From positions 34,891 to 98,890 of the forward strand of contig JAQTME010000002.1 in assembly GCA_028714535.1 (NCBI GenBank): 64,000 nt of DNA, written 5' to 3'. Under the pieces are notes generated by a model. That model ran no database searches, was not told the origin of the DNA, and saw only the letters and a list, made by a program, of their open reading frames with translations. Source of the DNA: Candidatus Iainarchaeum sp. (lineage in GTDB: Archaea; Micrarchaeota; Micrarchaeia; Anstonellales; Bilamarchaeaceae). The position numbers and the translations under genes are program-made. Below, piece by piece: positions 35,260 to 37,131 of the stretch (positions are counted from its first letter, which is position 1; every line of letters starts with the position of its first letter).

Positions 35260-35459
35260 GCGATCGTAGTCTAGTGGCCTTTTTGACTACTGCCATTCCA
35301 AGGGCAAAAAGCCCGGGGAAAGGCCCTCAGGGCAACAGGTCAAACGGGCCGGACTGTGGTAGGATTCGAGCTTCCCATCCGCCTTTTTACCAAAAAGGCG
35401 GCCCAAAAAGTGGGTGATGGAAAAAGCTCGCGACCCGGGTTCGAGCCCCGGCGATCGCA
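35260..35459 (+). tRNA. tRNA-Gly(CCC) with two introns (approx. 35275-35356 and 35378-35424)
   Basis: Acceptor GCGATCG/CGATCGC, discriminator A; T-arm CCGGG-TTCGAGC-CCCGG; anticodon stem CGAGC/GCTCG; spliced 71-nt sequence GCGATCGTAGTCTAGTGGTAGGATTCGAGCTTCCCAAGCTCGCGACCCGGGTTCGAGCCCCGGCGATCGCA. Confidence 0.88.
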
Positions 35460-36888: not shown

Positions 36889-37029
36889 GCCGACGTCGCA
36901 TAACCCGGTAGTGCGCACATCCTACCTGATGAGAATCAGGTATGAGCGTATGCCTGGAAGTCCGTCCTCTGGACGGCACCGGTGAGCGTGTTCCCCTGTG
37001 GATTGGGAGTTCAAATCTCCCCGTCGGCG
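36889..37029 (+). tRNA. tRNA-Ser(GGA), long variable arm, with two insertions (approx. 36916-36948 and 36960-36984)
   Basis: Acceptor GCCGACG/CGTCGGC, discriminator G; T-arm GGGAG-TTCAAAT-CTCCC; anticodon arm TATGC-CTGGAA^A-GCGTG with clear bulge-helix-bulge at 37/38; spliced length about 83 nt. Confidence 0.8.
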
Positions 37030-37031
37030 TT

Positions 37032-37131
37032 AGACGGGGGCGGTGGCATCAGCCACCCAACCCCCGTCGGCGAATTTTAATGAGCCGAAGGGGGCAGTGG
37101 CCGGCGTTCCGGCCGCTCAACCCCGTCGGCG
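37032..37131 (+). repeat. Two tandem GC-rich hairpins each ending in CCCCGTCGGCG, echoing the tRNA-Ser 3' end
   Basis: GACGGGGG-c-GGTGGC-ATCA-GCCACC-caa-CCCCCGTC and GGGG-ca-GTGGCCGG-CGTT-CCGGCCGC-tcaa-CCCC; CCCCGTCGGCG at 37019, 37062 and 37121. Confidence 0.75.

Follow-up and report, generated by a model that had tools for sequence, protein, structure and literature searches.

Transfer RNA genes carrying several introns are established in ARMAN archaea, Thermoproteales and others (PMC4033280), and the highest number of introns that we found published for one tRNA gene is three (PMC8450103, PMC4033280). In ARMAN-1 and ARMAN-2 (Candidatus Micrarchaeum acidiphilum), several introns per gene occupy non-canonical positions and are bounded by relaxed motifs (PMC4033280, PMC6379350); the epsilon-2 splicing endonuclease is of broad specificity, and its range takes in non-canonical positions as well as relaxed motifs (PMC6379350, PMC4033280). 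In Thermoproteales, tRNAs with two or three introns, up to three per gene, likewise combine non-canonical positions with relaxed motifs (PMC8450103, PMC4033280). In Caldivirga maquilingensis, tRNA-Ala is encoded by separate half-genes, broken at position 29/30, whose products are joined in trans (PMC4090602). The gene analyzed here lies at positions 36889-37029 (plus strand, as are all features given below for the window) of a 64,000-nt stretch of DNA from Candidatus Iainarchaeum sp., hereafter the window. The evidence leaves little doubt that it is functional, encodes an archaeal tRNA-Ser(GGA) and contains two protein-spliced introns, one at position 29/30, inside the anticodon stem, and one at 37/38. 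It is thus an ordinary archaeal double-intron tRNA of a kind already known, to which it contributes a well-supported intron at 29/30 that is present in some genomes of one genus and absent from others. ARMAN-1 and ARMAN-2 are close parallels, from different species with the same type of endonuclease; Thermoproteales belong to another phylum and use an (alpha-beta)2 endonuclease with a crenarchaeal loop. The break position 29/30 is shared with the split tRNA-Ala of Caldivirga, but here it is occupied by a cis intron.

The identity of the gene, proposed in the initial annotation, was corroborated by its stems, by ARAGORN on the spliced form and by orthologues. The acceptor stem is GCCGACG/CGTCGGC with discriminator G, the T-arm is GGGAG-TTCAAAT-CTCCC and the variable arm is long. 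Exon 1 (36889-36918, positions 1-29) ends in GTGC-G-CAC, exon 2 (36952-36959, positions 30-37) reads GC-CTGGAA with the anticodon GGA at 36956-36958, and exon 3 (36985-37029, positions 38-73) includes the variable arm. Exact exon matching gave exactly one two-intron solution, and removal of both introns left an 83-nt RNA with a cloverleaf laid out as in intronless orthologues, which ARAGORN called as tRNA-Ser(gga). By contrast, neither ARAGORN nor Rfam at the gathering score called the unspliced gene in the window, because two additional blocks lengthen it by 58 nucleotides; the locus thereby illustrates why standard tools overlook such genes. This failure could also be taken as the mark of a decayed or non-functional copy. 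Such a reading is scarcely credible, since the stems are intact once spliced, exons are near-identical among relatives while the introns have diverged, and no other serine tRNA gene with a GGA anticodon was found in the assembly (genome 91.4% complete). As the sole gene of its kind found there, tRNA-Ser(GGA) is probably essential. In each of two tandem hairpins immediately 3' of it (37030-37131), the last bases repeat the 3' end of the tRNA (CCCCGTCGGCG, positions 37062 and 37121). Similar copies of tRNA 5' ends were seen upstream of tRNAs in relatives (L044, L047, L053) and upstream of tRNA-Trp in this genome.

Intron 2 (25 nt, 36960-36984) is at the canonical position 37/38, and sequence, fold and enumeration agreed with the ends and the motif first assigned to it. 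Its central helix CUGG/CCGG (36954-36957/36979-36982) and its bulges AA^G and UG^A make up the four-pair helix and two 3-nt bulges that define a bulge-helix-bulge (BHB). The inner helix is formed by CCGUCC/GGACGG plus a U-A pair, with one bulged C (36977), and the outer helix is the anticodon stem.

The upstream block was also present as annotated, as 33 extra nucleotides preceding the anticodon and containing the hairpin TACCTGAT-GAGA-ATCAGGTA. Its ends, by contrast, had to be moved. It had been described as an insertion between D-arm and anticodon arm at about 36916-36948, with an ambiguity due to a GCG repeat and with no good BHB. Orthologues were collected by searching relatives with the 141-nt gene, which gave matches from the genus and the family. 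Those devoid of the upstream insertion (L042, L043, L045, L050, L052 and L055) read GTGC-G-CACGC-CTGGAA; in the fully intronless L058, CGTGC stands where other orthologues have CACGC. Around the end of exon 1, the sequence of the intronless orthologues is GTGCGCACGCCTGGAA. In the window, the order is GTGC-G-CAC, then 33 nt, then GC-CTGGAA. Since CACGC is uninterrupted in the intronless orthologues, intron 1 corresponds to 36919-36951, between positions 29 and 30, and the 5' strand of the anticodon stem is assembled from CAC (36916-36918) and GC (36952-36953).

All 16 possible 33-nt removals in the region were then scored. Removal of 36919-36951 was the only one combining five Watson-Crick stem pairs, a central helix with 4/4 pairs and an inner helix with 10/11 pairs. 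Placement of the insertion at 26/27 (or 25/26), with a TATGC/GCGTG anticodon stem and an unusual mode of removal, was considered as well. The 83-nt RNA so produced is still recognized as tRNA-Ser by ARAGORN, and two G-U pairs allow its anticodon stem to form. However, these ends put CAC inside the intron and let the last intron bases, TAT, mimic the stem. They offer no motif, the central helix reaching at most 3/4 pairs and the inner one at most 5/11, and with them the spliced RNA, when forced into a cloverleaf, is 3.9 kcal/mol less stable (-25.4 versus -29.3 kcal/mol for 36919-36951). Moreover, CACGC or a close variant is directly visible in orthologues lacking intron 1, and every insert-bearing orthologue has GCGCAC^A...GCGYAN^GC. 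The 26/27 placement is therefore very unlikely and was rejected on the basis of the enumeration and the orthologues.

With the 29/30 ends, a splice motif became apparent, and the failure to see one earlier is explained by ends set three bases off. The 5' strand of the central helix, GCGC (36913-36916), pairs with GCGT (36946-36949); the 5' bulge AC^A (36917-36919) would be cut between 36918 and 36919, and the 3' bulge AT^G (36950-36952) between 36951 and 36952. A four-pair central helix, GCGC/GCGU, thus has a 3-nt bulge on either side, AC^A and AU^G, as in a BHB. Between them lies the inner hairpin TCCTACCTGAT-GAGA-ATCAGGTATGA (36920-36945), whose helix strands UCCUACCUGAU/AUCAGGUAUGA are paired at 10 of 11 places. 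None of 200,000 shuffled intron-1 sequences matched the stem, central and inner score of the real one, and both the central and the inner helix are already formed when the unspliced RNA is folded to its energy minimum. No stable outer helix, as strict hBHBh' demands, was found beyond the 3' bulge in the fold, and the modelled motif is accordingly of the relaxed HBh' type and not a full hBHBh'.

The 29/30 intron is found in 11 of the 17 genus genomes (G000, G002-G007, G009, G012, G013 and G015) and in G019, from another genus of the family; the other six genus genomes lack it. Orthologous introns range from 31 to 80 nt and all conform to GCGCAC^A...GCG[T/C]AN^GC. When the 12 genomes were aligned, anchored at the splice sites, standard pairs occupied 93.5% of the motif cells, 26 cells being changed on both sides, and the covariation score was reached by none of 500 shuffles. 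Sliding the partner strand by 1 to 3 columns lowered pairing to 32-53%. The signal comes mostly from the inner helix, where the first five pairs covary, the central helix varying at only one of its four pairs. These data also bear on whether the mature tRNA could retain the 33-nt segment, as an additional hairpin arm. Its stable hairpin in the unspliced fold would suit such a role, but orthologous segments vary in sequence as well as in length, six of the 17 genus genomes do without them, and conservation resides in the splice motif and not in the loop. We know of no precedent for an arm within the anticodon stem, and retention of the segment is judged highly improbable. In G019, tRNA-Ser(GGA) (L053, G019:C73) contains four insertions, in the D-loop, at 29/30, at 37/38 and in the T-loop, and at least four deletions are needed to obtain its mature sequence, compared with the three introns that are the highest published number we found.

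The splicing machinery encoded in the genome was also inspected. A 403-aa endonuclease, a single chain of three units, is encoded on contig C4 and aligned nearly end to end with the ARMAN-2 enzyme (PDB 4fz2; E 3.9e-127), with 48% identity over 388 aligned columns. Catalytic residues Y236, H251 and K282, the RNA-contact residues K228, S252, R275 and W384, and Y160 and K161 of the ARMAN-specific loop are all kept (9/9 key residues; roles as described in PMC12397907). By this homology, the protein is an epsilon-2 (ARMAN-2-type) splicing endonuclease, orthologous to that of ARMAN-2, and the match also points to an organism of Micrarchaeota type. The removal mechanism of the 33-nt insertion, previously regarded as open, thus needs no special explanation, given an ordinary motif at the correct ends and a gene for a broad-specificity epsilon-2 endonuclease. 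A second, 165-aa endonuclease-like protein is encoded at L066:426-923, minus strand (G000:C8); by eye, its catalytic Tyr and His seem to be absent, and it is perhaps a structural subunit. A single gene for the ligase RtcB is present in the genome.

In the pathway that we propose, the epsilon-2 endonuclease would make four cuts at the two BHB-type motifs and RtcB would perform two exon joins, yielding a tRNA of 83 nt whose anticodon stem is CACGC/GCGUG and whose loop is CUGGAAA. The UAU that closes intron 1, together with the exon bases GC, can replace CAC opposite the 3' anticodon strand (pairs U-G, A-U, U-G, G-C and C-G). Owing to this pairing, formation of the 37/38 motif need not await the removal of intron 1, and either order of intron removal looks possible.

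Interrupted tRNA genes are common in this genome. About 44 tRNA genes were located in the assembled contigs, of which about 22 have introns, 11 of them two, for a total of about 33 introns; these counts are partly hand-curated, several false joins of the scripted solver having been checked by hand. Exact exon matching bore out nine genes with two introns. The other tRNA of the window, tRNA-Gly(CCC) (35260-35459), has a D-loop intron and a 37/38 intron, so that, as annotated, both tRNAs of the window have two introns. The disruption deduced from this pair was indeed genome-wide, but calling it extreme is a relative matter: with about 0.75 introns per gene, the genome comes close to the mean for Thermoproteales, 0.84 introns per tRNA gene (PMC8450103), and stays below those Asgard genomes in which 92-95% of tRNA genes have introns (PMC11291895).

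A dispersed element, consisting of the hairpin NNNNCTTTTT-AAAAAGNNNN followed by CAAAAA, was observed in these introns, one copy lying in the 37/38 intron of tRNA-Gly(CCC) (35379-35413). Fifteen copies exist in the genome, nine within tRNA introns and five more adjoining tRNA genes or lying within about 110 nt of them. In each genome of the genus, a model of the element detected between 3 and 100 copies; in G014, G008 and G010 most of the copies read were inside tRNA genes, and in the tRNA-Ser genes of relatives both orientations occur. The element is accordingly described as a predicted dispersed family of tRNA introns that extends across the genus. Two non-tRNA copies of the hairpin pair (L188 and L189; G014:C83 and C75) are situated between box-C-like and box-D-like motifs and may lie within C/D sRNA genes; no sRNA family was found around either with Rfam. 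Large-scale intron transposition is known in Thermoproteales, according to the citation of Fujishima 2010 in PMC4090602.

An insertion was also found in rtcB itself (L194, G000:C2:14754-16100, minus strand), about 19 kb from the start of the window. It consists of 33 nt with in-frame TGA and TAA, and separates the His codon from the Ser codon in MPDGH|SGYGFPIGG. The site is uninterrupted, MPDGHSGYGFPIGG, in the eight genus relatives read there and in G029 of the family, and no in-frame stop in rtcB was present in the other 54 matched genomes. Removal of ATTTCTTTTAATTGAAGTTAAAAGAAAGGCAAA restores the reading frame exactly, and the insertion can be folded into a BHB-like structure with an ACA bulge, a GCC/GGC helix, an 11-bp inner hairpin and an outer helix. 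Judged from sequence and predicted fold, it looks like a pre-mRNA intron within the gene for the splicing ligase itself. The stops might instead come from faulty assembly or a broken gene, but RtcB would be required for some 33 tRNA introns of this genome. A stop-containing insertion in the sole RtcB gene counts against explaining tRNA-Ser(GGA) by splicing of two introns. No report of such an rtcB intron was found in the literature searched, and an ab initio scan of protein genes for BHB introns returned 1,210 candidates and was uninformative. Were the insertion an intron, RtcB would be needed to make RtcB, constituting an autoregulatory loop of the splicing pathway.

The many tRNA-gene sites, the hairpin family and the one putative entry into rtcB suggest that this genus is still acquiring and relocating BHB introns, a proposition for and against which we consider the chances evenly balanced. 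Closely related genomes that differ in whether a given intron is present, the dispersed hairpin introns and the apparent ligase-gene intron would together permit direct study of intron gain in archaeal RNA genes, and in this respect the wider genome matters more than tRNA-Ser(GGA) itself. Among order and family relatives, RtcB was observed within open frames of about 940-990 aa (G044, G051, G028, G056, G041, G023, G030 and G024), in which matches begin near profile position 41-49; these long frames possibly hold inteins close to the rtcB insertion site.
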